DNA from: Armatimonadota bacterium
Lineage (GTDB): Bacteria; Armatimonadota; Hebobacteria; CAIYQO01
DNA length: 52,833 nucleotides
NCBI GenBank assembly: GCA_029553475.1
Contig: JAKPKV010000142.1
Location: forward strand, 1-52,833
Direction of reading: 5' to 3'
Shown here one piece after another: positions 218 through 52,816 of this stretch. The position numbers were made by a program, and so were the translations under genes. Numbering within the stretch: position 1 is the first letter of the stretch; the number at the start of each line of letters is the position of its first letter. Under the pieces are notes generated by a model. It saw only the letters and a program-made list of their open reading frames with translations, searched no databases and was not told the origin of the DNA.

Positions 218-1936
218 TTACACTTCCAGAATCACCGGGATCACCATCGGGCGGCGTTTCGTGCGCGCGTAGACGAACTTGTTCAGCGCCGAGCGCACCG
301 TCGCCCGCGCGGACTCCCAGTCGGTGCTGCTGGAGATATCCAGCTTCGCGATCGCTTCGCGCACCACCGTCTTCGCGTCCGTAATGAGCTCTTCCGCTTC
401 CTCGGCGTAGACGAAACCGCGGGTGACGATGTCCGGGCCGGCGACGATCTCGCCTGTTTGCGAGTCAATGCCGACCACCGCGGTGAGCATGCCGTCTTCC
501 GACAGGTGCTTGCGGTCGCGCAGCACCACCGCGCCGATATCCCCCACCCCGAGGCCGTCAATCATCACCCGCCCCGCCTGCACCTGCCCCCGCACGGCGG
601 CGCCGTCTCGGGTGATCTCCAGCACGTCGCCGGAGTGCAGCAGCGAGACGCGGTCCGCGGTATAGCCCATCGTCTCCGCCGTTTTCCGGTAGCGCACCAG
701 ATGGCGGAATTCGCCGTGCATGGGGACCAGATGGCGGGGTGCGGTCAGCGTCAGCATCATTTTCAGCTCTTCCTCGTGGCCGTGCCCGGAGACATGCGTA
801 TGCTCCGCCCCGTGGTACACCACCTCCGCGCCCTGGCGGAAGAGCTGATTGATGGTGCGGTACACCAGATCCTCGTTGCCGGGGATTGGCGACGCGGAGA
901 TGACCACCAGATCACCGGGGCCAACCTTGATATACTTGTGCTCGCCGGTAGACATCAGGCGCAGCGCGGAAAGCGGCTCGCCCTGGGTGCCGGTGGTGAG
1001 CACGGCAACTTCCTTCGCGGGAAGACTTGCCGCCGCATCCGGCTCGATGAGGATATCGGGCGACGGCAGGTGCATGAAACCGAGCTCGCGGGCGATATCC
1101 ACGTTCGCGCGCATGCTGCGGCCGATTACGCAGACGCGCCGCCCGTAGCGCGCGGCGACGTTGATCACCTCCTGCATGCGGAAGATATTGGAGGCGAAAC
1201 AGGCGACGATGATGCGCCCGTCGGCGTCCGCGAAGAGCTCATCGAAGGTCACGGCGACCGAGCGCTCGGAAGTGACCCACCCCGGCCGCTCGATGTTCGT
1301 CACGTCGCACATCAGCGCCAGGATGCCGCTGGAGGAGGCCAGCGCCAGCTTTTGCACCTCGGTGCGCTGGCCGAAGATGGGGCTCTGGTCGAATTTGAAA
1401 TCGCCGGTATGCACGGTTTTTCCCGCCGGCGTGGTGAGAATCAACCCCACCGCGTCGGGGATGCTATGCGTCACGCGAAAAAACTCCACGGTGAAGGGAC
1501 CGAGCGCCAGCGGTTCATCCGGGTCTATCAGGTTCAGCTCCACCGGCGGCAGATAGGCGTGCTCGGCCAGTTTATTGCGCACTAGCCCCAGCGTCAGCTT
1601 GGTGCCCCACACCGGCACGTTCAATTCGTTCAGCACCCAGGGAAGCGCGCCGATGTGATCCTCGTGACCGTGCGTGATCACGATCCCCAGCACATCGTCG
1701 GCATGGTCAAGGAGGTAGGTGATATCCGGGATGACCAGGTCAATGCCGAGCATCTCCTGTTCGGGAAAGAGCAGGCCGCAGTCTACGACGAGGATTTTTC
1801 CGCCGTATTCATAGGCAAACATATTTTTCCCGATCTCCCCGATCCCGCCCAGCGGGATGAAGCGGAGGGCGTCGGGATCAGTCGGGAACGGATAGCACGG
1901 CTCATCGCTCGGCTCAACGGGTGGTGTATATTCCAC
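218..1936 (-). CDS. rnj: Ribonuclease J
   Basis: This is a metallo-beta-lactamase/beta-CASP nuclease of the RNase J family, 572 residues, close to the usual 555-580. RNase J is a 5'-3' exoribonuclease and endonuclease acting in cytoplasmic mRNA decay and rRNA maturation in bacteria lacking RNase E. The HGHEDHIG zinc motif sits near residue 90. It is preceded by the typical opening RFIPLGGIGEIGKNM, and followed by the conserved HTGDFK, SASPIPGNE and HVSGHGHEEE segments. The start is a GTG at 1936 with a GAGGT site about ten bases upstream. The gene is divergent from gatB, with a 224 bp spacer. Family identification is secure; RNase J1 versus J2 cannot be distinguished by reading. Confidence 0.96.
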   Translation of the reverse strand: MEYTPPVEPSDEPCYPFPTDPDALRFIPLGGIGEIGKNMFAYEYGGKILVVDCGLLFPEQEMLGIDLVIPDITYLLDHADDVLGIVITHGHEDHIGALPWVLNELNVPVWGTKLTLGLVRNKLAEHAYLPPVELNLIDPDEPLALGPFTVEFFRVTHSIPDAVGLILTTPAGKTVHTGDFKFDQSPIFGQRTEVQKLALASSSGILALMCDVTNIERPGWVTSERSVAVTFDELFADADGRIIVACFASNIFRMQEVINVAARYGRRVCVIGRSMRANVDIARELGFMHLPSPDILIEPDAAASLPAKEVAVLTTGTQGEPLSALRLMSTGEHKYIKVGPGDLVVISASPIPGNEDLVYRTINQLFRQGAEVVYHGAEHTHVSGHGHEEELKMMLTLTAPRHLVPMHGEFRHLVRYRKTAETMGYTADRVSLLHSGDVLEITRDGAAVRGQVQAGRVMIDGLGVGDIGAVVLRDRKHLSEDGMLTAVVGIDSQTGEIVAGPDIVTRGFVYAEEAEELITDAKTVVREAIAKLDISSSTDWESARATVRSALNKFVYARTKRRPMVIPVILEV

Positions 1937-2098
1937 AGAATGCTACCTCAATCGTCTGTCTCGCGGTGTATACGGTATTTCGCGGCAGCGGCGCGAATTC
2001 CTGCCTGGGTACAGTCAGGCAATCCATCCATCCCGTTCGTAGTGAGATCACAATGGGCAGTCCCCGACGGGGTTGCCCAGGCGGGCAGGCCGTTCGCC

Positions 2099-2128
2099 TT
2101 GGCGACGACCGGCGAATACGAGTATAAT
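2099..2128 (+). promoter_or_regulatory. gatB promoter
   Basis: TTGGCG (2099-2104), an 18-base spacer and a perfect TATAAT (2123-2128) lie 32 bp before the gatB ATG. This gives a leader of roughly 25 nt containing the AAGGA ribosome-binding site. Confidence 0.7.
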
Positions 2129-2160
2129 TCACCAAACCCCTTTGCGTGAAGGACGAGAAC

Positions 2161-3606
2161 ATGGTGGACTACGAACCGGTCATTGGTTTTGAAATCCATG
2201 CCGAGCTGGCGACGGCCTCCAAGGTCTTTTGCGGCTGCGGCACCGAGCCCGGCGCCCCGCCGAACACCCACACCTGCCCGGTCTGCCTGGGGTTGCCCGG
2301 CGCGCTGCCGGTGCTGAACGTGGCGGCGCTGGAGTACGCGCTGAAGGTGGTGCTGGCCTGTCATTGCGACGTCCCCTCCCCTGCCATTTTCGAACGGAAG
2401 AACTACTACTATCCCGACCTGCCGAAAAACTATCAGATTTCCCAGAAGCGCGCCCCCTTCGGGGTGAACGGCTGGTTCGAGTTCGAGGTGAACGGCGCGA
2501 TGAAGCGCGTGCGTATCCTCGACATCCACCTGGAAGAGGATGCCGGCAAGCTCGTCCACCCCCAGGAGCGCGGCGCGGCGGGGGTGAGCCTGGTGGACTA
2601 TAACCGCGCCGGCGTGCCGCTGCTGGAGATCGTCTCCGGGCCGGATATCCACAGCGTCGAGGAGGCGGAAGCCTACATGATCGCCATGCGCCGGTTGCTC
2701 CGCTACCTCGGCGTGTCCGAGGCGCGCATGGAGCTGGGGCAGATTCGCTTTGAGGCGAATATCTCCGTACGCCCGGTCGGATCGGCGACGCTGGGCACGC
2801 GCGTCGAGATCAAGAACCTGAACTCCTACCGCACGGTGATCCGCGGCATCGAATATGAGGTCGCCCGGCAGACGGCGCTGCATCGGAACGGCGAGCGCGT
2901 GGCGCAGGAGACGCGGCTGTTCGATGACGCGCGGGGCATCACGCTGGCGATGCGCGACAAGGAAGAGGCGCACGACTACCGCTACTTCCCCGATCCCGAC
3001 CTGGTGCCGATGCGCTTCACGCCGGAGTATCTCGAGCGGCTGCGCGCCGGCCTGCCCGAGCTGCCGGCGGCGCGGCGCGCCCGCTTCATCAGCGCCTATG
3101 GCCTGCCCGCCTACGACGCCGCGCTGCTCACCGACGAGAAGGCGATCGCCGATTTTGTGGATGCCGCGGTCGCCCTCAGCGCGCCGCCGAAGAGCGTGTC
3201 CAACTGGACCATGGGGGAGCTGCTGCGCCTGCTGAACGAGCGCGGCCTCTCGCCGGACGCGCTGCCCATCACCCCCGCGCACCTGGCGGCGCTCATCACG
3301 TTGGTCGAGAGCGGCGCGATCAACCAGAACCAGGCCAAGCAGGTCTTCGCCGAGATGTTCGAGACGGGAAAGGAACCGGCGCTGATCGTGAAAGAGCAGG
3401 GGTTTGCGCAAATCTCCGACGCCGGCGCGCTGGAAGCCATCGTGAACGAGGTCGTTGCCGCCAACCCCGACCCCGCCGCACGCTACGCCGCCGGCGAGGA
3501 CAAGCCGCTCGGTTTCCTCGTCGGACAGGTGATGAAGCGCTCCGGCGGCAAGGCGAATGCGCCGGTGGTCAACGCGATGCTGCGCGAGAAGCTGCGCGGC
3601 GGCTAA
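2161..3606 (+). CDS. gatB: Asp-tRNA(Asn)/Glu-tRNA(Gln) amidotransferase subunit B
   Basis: GatB is the tRNA-binding kinase subunit of GatCAB, which transamidates misacylated Glu-tRNA(Gln) or Asp-tRNA(Asn). About 481 residues, the normal length. Diagnostic segments are the opening YEPVIGFEIHAEL, FCGCGTEPGAPPNTHTCPVCLG with its Cys residues, RKNYYYPDLPKNYQISQ, and the C-terminal helical YqeY-like tail ending in GKANAPVVNAMLREKL. I take ATG 2161, not the in-frame GTG at 2146. AAGGA lies at 2149-2153 between them at good spacing, and homologues begin at this point. gatA and gatC are not in the window, so the complex is encoded at separate loci. Followed by a strong intrinsic terminator. Confidence 0.97.
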   Translation: MVDYEPVIGFEIHAELATASKVFCGCGTEPGAPPNTHTCPVCLGLPGALPVLNVAALEYALKVVLACHCDVPSPAIFERKNYYYPDLPKNYQISQKRAPFGVNGWFEFEVNGAMKRVRILDIHLEEDAGKLVHPQERGAAGVSLVDYNRAGVPLLEIVSGPDIHSVEEAEAYMIAMRRLLRYLGVSEARMELGQIRFEANISVRPVGSATLGTRVEIKNLNSYRTVIRGIEYEVARQTALHRNGERVAQETRLFDDARGITLAMRDKEEAHDYRYFPDPDLVPMRFTPEYLERLRAGLPELPAARRARFISAYGLPAYDAALLTDEKAIADFVDAAVALSAPPKSVSNWTMGELLRLLNERGLSPDALPITPAHLAALITLVESGAINQNQAKQVFAEMFETGKEPALIVKEQGFAQISDAGALEAIVNEVVAANPDPAARYAAGEDKPLGFLVGQVMKRSGGKANAPVVNAMLREKLRGG

Positions 3607-3629
3607 CGTTTCCCCCGGACAGACGCCGC

Positions 3630-3660
3630 AGCCGGGCGGATGGCATCCGCCCGGCTGTTT
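3630..3660 (+). terminator. Intrinsic terminator of gatB
   Basis: A perfect 12-bp stem (AGCCGGGCGGAT, 3630-3641, pairing with 3645-3656) with a 3-base loop is followed by GTTT. It lies 24 bp after the gatB stop, in the gap before the convergent gcvH. Confidence 0.8.
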
Positions 3661-3684
3661 GCATGGCGATGACGCGGTTGCCGG

Positions 3685-4056
3685 CTACAGCTTTTCCTGA
3701 TATTCGGCGGCCGTCAGCATGTTGTCGTAGTCGGCGGCGCCGCTCATCTCGATCTTCACCATCCACCCCGCGCCGTACGGATCGGCGTTGATGGCGCCGG
3801 GTTCATCGAGCAGCGGCTCGTTGATGGCGATCACGCGGCCGGAGACCGGCGCGTACAGGTCGGAGATGGTCTTCACCGATTCCACGCTGCCCATGACTTC
3901 GCCGGCCACCACGTCATCGCCCACCTGCGGCAGGCTCACGTATACGACATCACCGAGCTGATCCTGCGCGTGGTGCGTGATGCCGACGACGGCGATGCCG
4001 TCATCCACGCGCGCCCACACGTGGGCTTCGGAATACTTCAGGTTATCTGGATACAT
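3685..4056 (-). CDS. gcvH: Glycine cleavage system H protein
   Basis: The lipoyl-carrying shuttle protein of the glycine cleavage system, moving the aminomethyl group between P, T and L proteins. 123 residues, the usual length. The segment GSVESVKTISDLYAPVSG carries the lipoylated lysine (K62). The N-terminus KYSEAHVWARVDD and the C-terminal GWMVKIE are typical. The start is ATG 4056 with a very strong AGGAGGAG site about five bases upstream. gcvT and gcvP are not in the window. It converges on gatB across a terminator. Some bacteria use GcvH in lipoate relay as well, so its presence alone does not prove glycine catabolism. Confidence 0.96.
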   Translation of the reverse strand: MYPDNLKYSEAHVWARVDDGIAVVGITHHAQDQLGDVVYVSLPQVGDDVVAGEVMGSVESVKTISDLYAPVSGRVIAINEPLLDEPGAINADPYGAGWMVKIEMSGAADYDNMLTAAEYQEKL

Positions 4057-4315
4057 GGTCTCCTCCTTTTATCGCGTTCACGCCGAGTTCACGCTCAAGA
4101 TACCACGGCAGGGGGAGAAATCCCTTCTTTCGCTGGCGCACGCGCGCACTTTCGAGTACAATATACCGGCATGCCTACCCGCGTGAGATCATCCGCTGCC
4201 GCGCACCCCTCCCCCCGCCATGATGGCGCGCCCTGGCGCTGTCCGGCGCGGGCGCTGCGCCGGCGCCGCATCCACGCTGCTATCGCCATACCACACGATG
4301 GGAGGGCGCCGCGCC

Positions 4316-5596
4316 GTGTGCGCCTCTCCTGATACCGCTGCCGCCCCACCCCGCGGGGGCGCAACCTTCCGCGCCCTGCGCCATCACAATTTCCGCCTCT
4401 TCTGGTCCGGACAGTTGGTGTCGCTGGTCGGCACCTGGATGCAATCCACCGCCCAGTCCTGGCTGGTGCTGCAACTGGTGACGCGGGCATACGGCGCGGA
4501 CAAGTCCGCGCTGTACCTCGGTCTCGTCTCCGCGATCGGCAGCCTGCCCACCTTCCTCCTCACCCTGCTCGCCGGCGCCCTCGCCGACCGCGGGGACAAG
4601 CGCCGCATCGTCATCGCCACCCAGGCCGGCGCCATGCTGCTGGCGCTGCTGCTCGGCCTCCTGACGTATACCGGCTACATCCGACTCTGGCACGTGGTCG
4701 TGTACGCGGTGCTCGTCGGCACGGTGAATGCCTTCGACATGCCGACGCGCCAATCGTATGTCAAGGAGCTGGTGGGCGGAGAGGATTTGCTCAACGCCAT
4801 CGCGCTCAACTCCTCCGTCTTCAACGCGGCGCGCATCGTCGGCCCGGCTATCGCCGGCTGGCTGATGACCATCTTCGGCGTCGCCGGCATCTTTTTACTC
4901 AACGGCGCCAGCTACCTGGCGGTGCTCGCCGGGCTGTTCCGCATTCGCACACCCCGTCATACGGCTCCCACCGCCGACCGCTCGCTCTGGCAGCAGTTGG
5001 GCGAAGGCTTCCAGTATGCGTGGCGGAACCGGGCGATTCTCCTCCTGCTGGCGTTGATGGCGGTGCTCACCGTCTTCGGATTCTCCTATTTCGTGCTGAT
5101 GCCGGTCATCGCCGTACAGGTGCTGCACCTGGAGGAGGGCGGTTTCGGCATCCTCTTCGCGTTCAGCGGCGTCGGCGCGCTGGCGGGGGCGCTGCTCTTG
5201 GCCAGCACCGCCGGCCGCGCCCCTAAAGGCGCACTGCTGTGCGCCAGCGGCATCACCGCCGCCGTCTTCCTCATGCTGTTCAGCGTGAGCCGCGTCTTTT
5301 CGCTGTCCGCGCTCTTTCTCATGGGGATCAGCGGCGGGCTGGTCATCGCCAGCGCCAGCATCAACAGCCTCATGCAGGAGACCGCGCCGGATGCCCTGCG
5401 CGGGCGCGTGGTCAGTATGTGGATCTTCATCTTCGGCGGCTTCACCCCGCTCGGCGCCCTTTATGTCGGCACCGTCGCCCATCTCGGCGAACGGGTGGCC
5501 ATGCCGGCGCTGCCGCTGCTCGTGGGCGGCGCCGTCTGCCTGCTGGCCATCGCCGTCATCTCGCTGCGCGCCCGCTGGCTCTGGCGCCTGCCGTAG
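4316..5596 (+). CDS. Major facilitator superfamily exporter (EntS-like)
   Basis: A 12-helix transporter of the MFS_3/EntS type, predicted to sit in the cytoplasmic membrane. The family signature FRALRHHNFRLFWSGQ precedes TM1. The loop ADRGDKRRIVIATQ between TM2 and TM3 is the MFS motif-A region, and RQSYVKELVGGEDLLNAIALNS is characteristic of this subgroup. The substrate cannot be read from sequence; relatives export siderophores, drugs or sugars. The start is uncertain: GTG 4316 has GGAGG ten bases upstream, ATG 4298 and ATG 4220 are in-frame alternatives, and a TACAAT box at 4157-4162 could be the promoter. Followed by a regulator gene in the same direction, but that gene has its own promoter. 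Confidence 0.85.
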   Translation: MCASPDTAAAPPRGGATFRALRHHNFRLFWSGQLVSLVGTWMQSTAQSWLVLQLVTRAYGADKSALYLGLVSAIGSLPTFLLTLLAGALADRGDKRRIVIATQAGAMLLALLLGLLTYTGYIRLWHVVVYAVLVGTVNAFDMPTRQSYVKELVGGEDLLNAIALNSSVFNAARIVGPAIAGWLMTIFGVAGIFLLNGASYLAVLAGLFRIRTPRHTAPTADRSLWQQLGEGFQYAWRNRAILLLLALMAVLTVFGFSYFVLMPVIAVQVLHLEEGGFGILFAFSGVGALAGALLLASTAGRAPKGALLCASGITAAVFLMLFSVSRVFSLSALFLMGISGGLVIASASINSLMQETAPDALRGRVVSMWIFIFGGFTPLGALYVGTVAHLGERVAMPALPLLVGGAVCLLAIAVISLRARWLWRLP

Positions 5597-5689
5597 GGGC
5601 AGATGCGCGCCGGCGCTGGAGGCGCGGCTCTGTTCCGCCGCGGCGGTAGACGTGACGACAGGCCCTGCCCAGGAAGGGCAATATTCTGC

Positions 5690-29759: not shown

Positions 29760-29837
29760 TGGGGTGGGTAACCCGACTTGAACGGGCGACCTCCAGGGCC
29801 ACAACCTGGCGCTCTAACCGACTGAGCTATACCCACC
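29760..29837 (-). tRNA. tRNA-His (anticodon GTG)
   Basis: Cloverleaf read on the minus strand: 5' GGTGGGTATAGCTC, anticodon loop TTGTGGC, T-arm GTTCAAGTC, and encoded CCA at 29760-29762. The extra 5' G (29837) opposite C73 is the histidine-specific G-1. Confidence 0.95.
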
Positions 29838-29861
29838 ATCTACCGTGCTATCCGCCAAAGC

Positions 29862-29937
29862 TGGCGCGCCCAGCAGGAATCGAACCTGCGACCAACTGCT
29901 TAGAAGGCAGCTGCTCTATCCCCTGAGCTATGGGCGC
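29862..29937 (-). tRNA. tRNA-Arg (anticodon TCT)
   Basis: Minus strand: acceptor GCGCCCA/TGGGCGC, D-arm AGCTCAGGGGATAGAGC, anticodon loop CTTCTAA, T-arm GTTCGATTC, discriminator G and encoded CCA (29862-29864). Confidence 0.95.
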
Positions 29938-29940
29938 GTC

Positions 29941-30016
29941 TGGAGCGGGAGACGGGATTCGAACCCGCGACATCCAGCTTGGAAGGCTAGCGCTCTGCCA
30001 ACTGAGCTACTCCCGC
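29941..30016 (-). tRNA. tRNA-Gly (anticodon TCC)
   Basis: Minus strand: acceptor GCGGGAG/CTCCCGC, anticodon loop CTTCCAA, T-arm GTTCGAATC, discriminator T and encoded CCA (29941-29943). Only three bases separate it from tRNA-Arg. Confidence 0.95.
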
Positions 30017-30034
30017 CCAGCAATCATTCGCGAA

Positions 30035-30111
<77 letters not shown>

Positions 30112-45593: not shown

Positions 45594-47870
45594 ATGGCAT
45601 ACCGCGCGTCCTTGGCCCTGCTCAGCATCCTGCTGGCGCTGGCGTCCGCGCCGTCTCGCGCGGCGGCGGACGCCGCGGAACGCAAAATGTATGACTCCCA
45701 GTGGGGCACCCCGGTCTGCGACGACACGGCGGTGGATAAAACCCAGCCCCTCATCACGGTGAGCGGCACCGTCTTCGCCGACCTGAACGGCGACGGCCGC
45801 CGGGACGACGGGGAGCCGGGATTGCCGGGAGTATGCGTCTCCAACGGCGAGCAGGTGGTGAAAACCGGCCCGACCGGCGCCTATACGCTGGCGGCGGTGC
45901 AGCCGGGCGTGCACCGGACGGTCTTCGTCACCGTGCCGACGGGCTACCGCATCGGCGGGCGCTTTTATCAGCTCGTCCCCGACACATGCGCGGGGATGGC
46001 CGCGGAGTTCGGTCTGGTGCCCGACCCGGCGTCGCTGCACGCCGACCACGCGTTCGCGCACGTCACCGACGCCCACATCACGCGCAAGGGCGTGACGGCC
46101 TTCGCGGAGCTGGGGGCGCCGCTTGCCTTCGTCGTCGTCACCGGCGACATGAGCAACGACCGGGAGCTAGAGGCGTTTCAGGACGCGGCGCGCCGCTCGC
46201 CGGTTCCCGTCATGGTGCTGCCGGGCAACCACGACGTGCTGGTCAATGGCTCCGGCGCGCTCGCGCCCGCGCTCGGCACCGGCGCGGCCTACGAGACGGT
46301 GCTGGGGCCGAAATATTACGCCTTCGATTATGGCGGCCGCCATTACGTGTGCCTCAGCAGCGTCGAGGACATGCCGCGACAGTTGGTCTGGCTGAAGAAT
46401 GACGTCATGCAGCAGCCGGCGAATACGGAGCTGCTCATCTTCCAGCATTTCCCGCCCACGGCCGCGCAGATGGCGCTCTATCGCACGTATCGCGCCCGCG
46501 CGGTCTTCAGCGGGCATACCCACTCCAACCGCGTATTCCGGGATGGCGACATCCTCTACGTCAATACGCCGCCGTTCATCCGCGGCGGCCTCGATTTCAG
46601 TCCGCGCACCTATCGGGTCGTCACCTTCACCGGCGGGCGCATCGCGCTCGAAAGCTACGCGTCCGGCTTCGGGACGCACCGCCTCGCCGAGACGGACCCG
46701 GCCCTGCCGCACGCGTCCGGTCGCCTCCCCGCCGTGCGGCCGCGCCGCGACTGGCCGATGTTCAAAGGTGACCCGGCGCGCACGGGGGTGGCGCGGGACG
46801 CCGTGAAACCGCCCTTCGCCCTCGCCTGGCGCCGGCCGCTCGGCCTCACCATTCACATGGCCTCTCCGGTCGTCGGCGGCGGGATGGTCTATATCGGCGC
46901 CGGCGACGATGCCCTGGCCGCGCGGTCGGGCGTGTACGCCCTTGACGCGAAGACGGGCGCAGTGCGCTGGCATTATCCCACGCTGGCGAAGGTGGCGCAC
47001 AGCGTGTCGCTGGCGGGCGACACCGTGCTGGCGACCAGCAACGACGGCGTGATCCACGCCATCAACGCGAAGACCGGCGCCCGCCGCTGGACCTACGCGT
47101 TGGGGAATCCGCACGATTGCTGGCTGTATACCGCGCCGGTCGTCGCCGGGAAACTGGTCATCTGCGGCACGGCGCAGCACTTCACCGCGCTGGAGCTGGC
47201 GACCGGCGCACCGCGCTGGCGCCTGCCCGCGGAAAGCGCCGGCCACTGGCCCACCTACAGCTCTCCCGCTGTACAGGGAGAGGCGATGTTTGCCGCCTTC
47301 CCCGGCGCCGGCGCCTTCATGTGCGACGCGTCCACCGGGGCGCGCCGCTGGCGGGCGGACAACAGCCTCGTCATCAACAGCAGCAGCGCTCACACCGTGG
47401 CCGTCAGCGGGAAGACGGTGTACGTGCGGACGAACAGCGCCCTCTTCGCGCTGGATGCCGATACCGGCGTCACGCGCTGGCGCTCTGCCACTAAAGGCGG
47501 CGCCTCCTCGCCGGTCGCCACCGGGACGGCGGTGATCCTCGGCATGAGCGGCGGCGAGATCGTGAACCTCGACGCCGCCACCGGCGCGGAACGCTGGCGC
47601 TACGCGCCCGCCGGCGGGCCGCCGCGGGCCGATACGGCGAAACGCTACTTCGACCCCCGGCTCATCGCCACCCCCATCGTCTCCGGCGACATCATCTACG
47701 CGTGCACCACGGACGGCCAGCTGCTCGCGGTAGACGCCGCCACCGGCGCCGAACTCGCCGTCACGGCGCTGAACGCCCCCTTCACCGCTTCCCCGGCCAT
47801 ATCGGGCAACACCCTCTTCCTCGCCTCGTATACCGGCACGGTGTACGCGCTGGTGTCTATCGCGCGGTGA
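45594..47870 (+). CDS. Secreted metallophosphoesterase fused to a PQQ-type beta-propeller
   Basis: A 758-residue exported protein: signal peptide (residues 1-26, LALLSILLALASAPSRA). Residues about 50-125 are a SdrD-B/MetallophosN-like beta domain (GTVFADLNGDGRRDDGEPGL). Residues about 145-345 are a calcineurin-like phosphoesterase with complete ligands (TDAHI, TGDMSND, LPGNHDVL, QHFPP, SGHTHSN). Residues about 390-755 are a PQQ-dehydrogenase-like propeller of about seven blades, with repeats such as VYALDAKTGAVRWHYP, IHAINAKTGARRWTYA and VNLDAATGAERWRY. The PQQ quinoprotein catalytic residues were not identified, so the propeller may be a binding scaffold. Start ATG 45594 has GGAGGGGAGG. A CCGACAC/GTGTCGG hairpin precedes it. 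Confidence 0.85.
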   Translation: MAYRASLALLSILLALASAPSRAAADAAERKMYDSQWGTPVCDDTAVDKTQPLITVSGTVFADLNGDGRRDDGEPGLPGVCVSNGEQVVKTGPTGAYTLAAVQPGVHRTVFVTVPTGYRIGGRFYQLVPDTCAGMAAEFGLVPDPASLHADHAFAHVTDAHITRKGVTAFAELGAPLAFVVVTGDMSNDRELEAFQDAARRSPVPVMVLPGNHDVLVNGSGALAPALGTGAAYETVLGPKYYAFDYGGRHYVCLSSVEDMPRQLVWLKNDVMQQPANTELLIFQHFPPTAAQMALYRTYRARAVFSGHTHSNRVFRDGDILYVNTPPFIRGGLDFSPRTYRVVTFTGGRIALESYASGFGTHRLAETDPALPHASGRLPAVRPRRDWPMFKGDPARTGVARDAVKPPFALAWRRPLGLTIHMASPVVGGGMVYIGAGDDALAARSGVYALDAKTGAVRWHYPTLAKVAHSVSLAGDTVLATSNDGVIHAINAKTGARRWTYALGNPHDCWLYTAPVVAGKLVICGTAQHFTALELATGAPRWRLPAESAGHWPTYSSPAVQGEAMFAAFPGAGAFMCDASTGARRWRADNSLVINSSSAHTVAVSGKTVYVRTNSALFALDADTGVTRWRSATKGGASSPVATGTAVILGMSGGEIVNLDAATGAERWRYAPAGGPPRADTAKRYFDPRLIATPIVSGDIIYACTTDGQLLAVDAATGAELAVTALNAPFTASPAISGNTLFLASYTGTVYALVSIAR

Positions 47871-51795: not shown

Positions 51796-52816
51796 TGTAA
51801 TGGGTCGTCACATTGTATTCAGTGCTCCCGCCAATAGGTTGGTTCCAGCAGCATAGCGGCGGCGGCATGGAGGCGGTAGTCGCGCCGGAAGATGTCTAAC
51901 GGCGTGGCGCCACCCAGCCCTTGGTGCGCCCGTTTGGTGTTATAGTCCATCTCCCAGAGCCGGTGGTAATACTTGCGCTCCTCCGACGCGGCAAAGTAGC
52001 GCGCGCGAAAGCACTCTTCGTTATCGGTGCGATGCGAGCGCTCGATGATGCCGTTCTGCCAGGGGCAGCGGGATTGACACGTGCCATGTTGCAGGCCTAA
52101 CGCGGCGACGGTCTTTTGGAACGCATTCCGCGCGTGACGATTCGCGCTGTAGGTCATGGTGAATTCCAAGGCCTTGTCTGTCCAGACCAGCCACGCGGGC
52201 GGGAGACGGTCCAAGGCGCGTTGGAGTACACCGGCCACCGTGCGCGTCTGGTGATTCGGATGAATCTCGGAATACTTCCAGCGGGTGCGCAAATGGATGA
52301 CGCTGATTTTATACTCATAGCCGGTGCCGCCTCCGAGGGCGGGGAGTTGTTGACAATCCATCTGCAGGCGATGCCAGCCCACGGGAATCGGGTGACACTC
52401 CCGACGCCGGCGAGTCGCACGGGCCTGCAGACGCGCGACCCGCACAATATGGCGGACGGTACTGCGGGTGGCCTGCCGATACCACGGACGTAATTCGGTG
52501 GCGAGGCGGCGCGTGCCCCAGGCCCGATGGGCCTGCCGCAGATGGCGCACGGCCGCCTTATACCCCGGGGGGCGCTTACTCCGGCGGTGCTGCGGGGCAG
52601 AACTGCGATCCTGCGGGCTCTCGCGATGGCACCAGCGTTGGACCGTTTTCGGACTGACGTGGTACTTGGCGGCTAACTCCGCGCGACTGGCGCCCGCGAG
52701 AAAGTCCTCCCGGAGCGCTCGCCGCTGGTGGATAGTGAGCCGAGCATTCGGATGATATTTCATATGAACAGAGTACCCAATCCGCAGACGTGACTACATC
52801 GTGACGACCCGCTACA
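51796..52816 (-). mobile_element. Complete IS481-family insertion sequence (1021 bp)
   Basis: Terminal inverted repeats begin TGTAATGGGTCGTCACATTG on the left and, read inward, TGTAGCGGGTCGTCACGATG on the right (about 16 of 20 match). Both ends are flanked by a 6-bp direct repeat GCTAGC (51790-51795 and 52817-52822). This matches the NCTAGN target and TGT...ACA ends known for IS481. The single transposase gene is intact, so the element may be active. The target lies in the arm of the palindromic repeat. Confidence 0.9.
51819..52763 (-). CDS. IS481-family transposase
   Basis: A 314-residue DDE transposase. An N-terminal helix-turn-helix (residues about 10-50; REDFLAGASRAELAAKYHVSPKTVQRW) is followed by an rve-type integrase core. 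The catalytic triad is carried by RLQMDCQQL, LVWTDKALEFT and GIIERSHRTDNEE, with PWQN before the last, the usual IS481 context. The terminal helices DYNTKRAHQGLGGATPLD match the family end (usually YNxxRPHxxLxxxTP). No frameshift or stop is seen. It uses less extreme GC codon choice than neighbouring genes, in keeping with a mobile origin. Confidence 0.92.
   Translation of the reverse strand: MKYHPNARLTIHQRRALREDFLAGASRAELAAKYHVSPKTVQRWCHRESPQDRSSAPQHRRSKRPPGYKAAVRHLRQAHRAWGTRRLATELRPWYRQATRSTVRHIVRVARLQARATRRRRECHPIPVGWHRLQMDCQQLPALGGGTGYEYKISVIHLRTRWKYSEIHPNHQTRTVAGVLQRALDRLPPAWLVWTDKALEFTMTYSANRHARNAFQKTVAALGLQHGTCQSRCPWQNGIIERSHRTDNEECFRARYFAASEERKYYHRLWEMDYNTKRAHQGLGGATPLDIFRRDYRLHAAAAMLLEPTYWREH

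Follow-up and report, generated by a model that had tools for sequence, protein, structure and literature searches.

The fusion gene and its domains

The window, by which we mean the whole stretch of 52,833 nucleotides analysed here, comes from an assembly of 5.27 Mb in 194 contigs and carries an open reading frame that, according to the ORF list and its translation, runs stop-free from an ATG at 45594 over 758 residues. The element GGAGGGGAGG is located 6 bases 5′ of this ATG. The features of the gene are the following:

45594..47870, + strand: whole ORF, phosphoesterase–propeller fusion of 758 residues (ORF, Pfam, syntenic orthologue in L005)
45594..45668, + strand: likely Sec signal peptide, residues 1–25 (translation read by eye)
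45741..46028, + strand: MetallophosN/SdrD_B-like domain, residues about 50–145 (Pfam, both models just under cut-off)
46029..46658, + strand: calcineurin-like phosphoesterase domain, residues 146–355 (Pfam Metallophos, 1.8e-11; motif columns in 35 fusions)
46659..46763, + strand: short linker, residues 356–390 (alignment with relatives)
46764..47867, + strand: PQQ_2/BamB-type propeller, residues 391–758, eight blades by reading (Pfam, predicted structure, structural matches)

The joining of a phosphoesterase and a propeller in one protein, as the first-pass annotation had proposed, was borne out by the intact ORF, by the Pfam domains and by an orthologue from Armatimonadetes bacterium UR.bin144 (L005, same genus), the nearest named relative, on which the assignment to the phylum Armatimonadota rests. 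This orthologue carries the same fusion and is 75% identical over its whole length. The order ScpB, NadC, fusion, RtcB, S-adenosylhomocysteine hydrolase is common to both loci. The fusion gene and rtcB are about 2.2 kb apart in L005 (8278–10465) and about 0.27 kb apart in the window. Comparison of the two fusion genes by the Nei–Gojobori method gave a dN of 0.154 and a dS of 0.637 overall (dN/dS about 0.24), and none of the five blocks, among them the linker, reached a ratio of 0.33:

Leader: dN 0.339, dS 1.055
MetallophosN: dN 0.123, dS 0.498
Phosphoesterase: dN 0.133, dS 0.817
Linker: dN 0.244, dS 0.929
Propeller: dN 0.144, dS 0.536

Judged by these ratios, every block of the gene is under purifying selection. 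Since the orthologue shares both the fusion and the gene order, and since selection appears to act on every block, the fusion is regarded as one gene; a frame error joining two genes, which would have undone the proposal, is ruled out by the single ORF, the syntenic orthologue and the selection across the linker.

Read by eye in the translation, residues 1–25 show a basic start, a hydrophobic run and SRA-AA. The Pfam search recovered Metallophos and PQQ_2, with MetallophosN just below its cut-off. The latter model (PF16371) matched residues 73–120 (4.6e-08; 33.6 bits, cut-off 35.6), while residues 58–120 were matched by SdrD_B (3.8e-06; 27.5 bits, cut-off 29.7); because the two matches overlap, they were taken as one domain. 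A domain in front of the enzyme had been annotated as SdrD-B-like, and its presence is supported, but MetallophosN is the better name because six of nine relatives scanned pass the cut-off of that model (L005 scores 32.7, L054 29.4, and L099 has no match). The domain can thus be read as the usual partner of this phosphoesterase family. Its naming as an SdrD adhesin module was rejected: NF012181 (MSCRAMM SdrD) scored 9.1 against a cut-off of 2500, and SdrD_B lies under its own.

Metallophos matched residues 154–311 with 45.3 bits against a cut-off of 21.5 (E 1.8e-11), which places the protein in the calcineurin-like phosphoesterase superfamily. The metal motifs of this superfamily are D-x-H, GD, GNH, H and GHxH, and all five are present in the translation and the alignment, as D159-A-H161, G184-D185, G211-N212-H213, H285 and G307-H308-T-H310; such a metal site predicts phosphoester hydrolysis. 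In an alignment of 35 fusions, H213 and H285 are kept in all rows, D159, D185 and H308 in 34 and H310 in 33. H161 is kept in 21 of the 35 and N212 in 20, and relatives may for this reason differ in chemistry. Replacement of His by Gln in the first motif (10/35) and of Asn by Gly in the third (12/35) points to sub-lineages in which the metal site may have changed. A comparison of the phosphoesterase part with solved sequences, limited to E-values of 0.1 or less, gave no matches but two purple acid phosphatase sequences, both weak (best E 2.3e-4).

Distribution and history of the fusion

When 291 Armatimonadota genomes were searched with the enzyme part of the protein (residues 50–380, E up to 1e-10), matches were obtained at 77 places in 61 genomes. 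Profiles made from eight fusion proteins (the window protein, L005, L024, L028, L029, L035, L053 and L055) were run against the six-frame ORFs of the 75 places other than the window and its orthologue, and phosphoesterase and propeller share one ORF at 30 of these places, four of which (L056, L057, L058 and L064) are the origin of the seeds L024, L028, L029 and L035 and match by construction. Over all loci given to the profile search, 34 of 79 were fused; L005, L053, L054 and L055 are the four outside the 75. With the window and its orthologue included, the fusion occurs at 32 of 77 places and in at least 28 of the 291 genomes, a lower bound, since contig ends truncate some ORFs (four unfused ORFs being marked as cut) and distant relatives are lost at this threshold. 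One contig (L112; G056:C17) carries a tandem pair of phosphoesterase–propeller ORFs at 1390–3504 and 3491–5620, the second of which is also in L092.

The spread is patchy: the family or class of the window includes 12 further genomes outside its genus, none of which has the fusion at E up to 1e-10, and among these a single genome (G006) has a match, which is unfused. Outside the phylum, Pfam finds the same architecture in Phocaeicola massiliensis, Bacteroides finegoldii and Dietzia (the MetallophosN of the latter being under its cut-off), and two Rhodococcus places reach, in the sequence search, into both the enzyme and the propeller parts. The match in Phocaeicola covers 87% of the query at 27.9% identity. 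Proteins of the type of B. finegoldii WP_237922852.1, annotated as 'PQQ-binding-like beta-propeller repeat protein', follow the same order as the window protein, MetallophosN–Metallophos–(sandwich)–PQQ_2. That the parts usually occur in separate proteins, as stated in the first-pass annotation, gives no cause for surprise: on these matches the architecture is common, with members in Armatimonadota, Bacteroidota and Actinomycetota, and it is already in print (see below).

A tree of 80 phosphoesterase domains, 35 of them fused, was rooted at the midpoint and has eight long branches, so that a long-branch warning applies; one duplicate ORF (L112) and one other ORF of L005 (284 residues, phosphoesterase match only) were left out. 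At the fewest, five changes of the fused label are required, or three when starred branches alone are counted, which argues for more than one gain or loss of the fusion. One starred branch nevertheless separates the 35 fused rows, along with three unfused rows and one cut row, from the rest of the tree, and a single gain followed by losses would be a possible history. The N-terminal match is absent from 12 of the 35 non-duplicate fusion ORFs; eleven of these make up a separate starred branch, and the twelfth (L086) groups with L066 and L069.

The window protein differs from most MetallophosN–Metallophos–PQQ_2 proteins of Armatimonadota and Bacteroidota in the spacing between enzyme and propeller. 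In the alignment this spacing is 107–144 residues in 27 of 34 relatives and 18–52 in six others, whereas it is 35 in L005, with which the window protein aligns gap-free, giving about 35 residues here as well. A paralogue (L056 in G001), 40% identical over the propeller, has 110. Read by eye, the stretch of about 110 residues in the relatives may be a beta-sandwich; Pfam gave it no name in nine proteins scanned at E up to 0.001, and the same scan lent no support to its identification as MetallophosC. Loss of this sandwich-like stretch in the lineage of the window would be the simplest reading of the short linker.

Fold of the propeller

PQQ_2 matched the window protein with an E-value of 3.3e-53 in three stretches, the best at 558–753. 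Structure prediction of the whole protein from a two-row alignment gave a mean pLDDT of 50.4, with residues 18–406 under 50; the propeller is modelled with moderate confidence (ten-residue mean pLDDT of 36–92 from residue 411, mostly 60–90), and the structural comparison covers residues 399–757 alone. In the strand list of the model, seven blades of four strands each are followed by three final strands, which strand 408–415 could close, and the propeller would by this reading be eight-bladed, in agreement with its best structural matches, rather than roughly seven-bladed as first annotated.

The top match is BamB in the integrative model 9a3d (Z 38.4, rmsd 2.1, 329 aligned residues, 21% identity). 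Behind it are tied the designed eight-bladed Cake8 (Z 37.2), the BamB crystal structure 4xga (37.1) and tetrathionate hydrolase (37.1), and WD40 propellers reach up to Z 34.5 (Fbw7). Most of the top matches are BamB entries. The predicted fold is accordingly an eight-bladed propeller with BamB nearest by a small margin, and it gives no function. BamB itself is a stand-alone lipoprotein, and the window protein scores 119.4 against the cut-off of 285.2 of its equivalog model TIGR03300.

Gene context and possible function

The neighbours of the window fusion named above are housekeeping genes, and no context that would indicate a substrate was found among them. The B. finegoldii homologue belongs to a run of genes on one strand whose other annotations are phosphodiester glycosidase, DUF6528 and two GH3, of which DUF6528 and one GH3 were confirmed by Pfam, and the P. 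massiliensis homologue directly follows the gene of an Exo_endo_phos protein. NAGPA has five places over its cut-off in the genome of the window, none on this contig; this is weak evidence, as 6 of the 14 control genomes likewise contain the family.

A recent report (Sci Adv 2024, PMC11488536; preprint PMC11188070) describes the secreted calcineurin-like phosphoesterases around ShfP as occurring across bacteria in fusion with many surface domains, and names the PQQ beta-propeller and NAGPA, the phosphodiester glycosidase, among these. According to the same report, early-sporulating B. subtilis releases glycerol by means of ShfP, changes of its metal-site residues partly or wholly abolish complementation, and lipoteichoic acid is proposed as the likely substrate (PMC11488536, PMC11188070). 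The window protein, the secretion of which is predicted by eye, resembles this group in combining a calcineurin-like phosphoesterase with a surface or adhesion domain, while ShfP itself is a protein of 1289 residues that carries a lamin-tail domain and seven Ig domains (PMC11488536). The same combination being already in print, the window fusion is an ordinary one. As to whether such proteins are already characterised, this applies to ShfP (PMC11488536), but not to the propeller-bearing members, for which no assay was found in the open-licence PubMed Central papers searched.

We consider the window protein to be probably an exported phosphodiesterase that acts on an envelope or extracellular phosphate polymer and uses its propeller as a binding platform. 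Following export by the Sec pathway, as suggested by the leader, a binuclear-metal phosphoesterase of the large secreted calcineurin-like group would hydrolyse phosphodiesters in an envelope-associated or extracellular polymer, which may be a teichoic-acid-like glycan, a phosphoglycan, eDNA or a lipid head group, for the purpose of recycling or phosphate supply. To our knowledge, no teichoic acids are known in Armatimonadota. The propeller would be a rigid, non-catalytic platform for substrate, surface or partner, consistent with the presence among its best matches of BamB, a non-enzymatic scaffold. The metal motifs, the domain calls, the contexts in B. finegoldii and P. massiliensis, the ShfP report and, weakly, NAGPA count in favour of a phosphodiesterase; the housekeeping neighbours, the lack of teichoic acids known to us in the phylum, the variation at H161 and N212 and the modelling of the phosphoesterase part without confidence count against it. 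The extracytoplasmic phosphodiesterase with a large docking surface suggested by the first-pass annotation thus agrees with the anatomy of the protein and with the wider published group, its export being read by eye and its activity and docking predicted; the alternative offered there, a redox-sensing propeller, is not supported, as detailed below.

The purple acid phosphatase sequences, as the sole solved matches of the enzyme part, may hint at a general phosphate-scavenging phosphatase of that kind, merely stabilised by its propeller; we think this unlikely, given the glycan-linked context of the Bacteroides homologue and a scan of the neighbours that found no Pho-type context. Still less can be said for a propeller that serves as a BamB-like partner of outer-membrane machinery, with the phosphoesterase secondary or inactive. 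The predominance of BamB among the top structural matches speaks for such a partner, but the equivalog score is far from its cut-off, the metal motifs are intact and propellers of other function (tetrathionate hydrolase, Fbw7) score nearly as high, so that we hold it to be very improbable.

Binding of PQQ by the propeller, which would then sense redox state or oxidise a substrate beside the phosphoesterase, is suggested by the Pfam domain names PQQ and PQQ_2 and by PQQ dehydrogenases, which match the family profile, although they rank below BamB. Retention of a Glu/Asn/Asp calcium site and of an Arg would be expected of a quinoprotein. Across the 35 fusions, conservation of 70% or more in the propeller is limited to columns of Gly, Trp, Pro, Thr, Asp, Val, Ala and Leu that belong to the repeat, and no conserved Glu/Asn/Arg pocket or PQQ/Ca2+ ligand set is among them. 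The PQQ-dehydrogenase models remain far below their cut-offs (TIGR03075, 67.3 against 480.05; TIGR03074, 55 against 832.65), the translation contains no adjacent cysteines, and the propeller is of BamB size. In the genome of the window, PqqE has eight places, none over its cut-off, and PqqC has no match; both say little, since none of the 14 control genomes passed either cut-off and PQQ might also be scavenged. The conserved columns argue against PQQ binding across the family, a pocket limited to the lineage of the window being possible; a PQQ enzyme or redox sensor is not supported, and we give it almost no credence.

Returning to the exported phosphodiesterase, it is tempting to speculate that loss of the sandwich has brought the propeller directly over the active site, where it would gate a polymeric substrate and turn the window protein into a compact phosphodiesterase that is size-selective or processive and differs in this from most of its relatives, an elaboration that we regard as quite improbable. 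The significance of these observations is mainly one of annotation, in that secreted phosphoesterases with propellers form a widespread branch. The compact window protein would be convenient for expression and, if a substrate were found, the role of the propeller would become testable.

Elsewhere in the window, a transposase-like gene with an integrase core (rve_3) lies near the S-adenosylhomocysteine hydrolase gene (51819–52763, − strand), and four clustered tRNA genes, for His, Arg, Gly and Pro, occupy 29760–30111 on the − strand.
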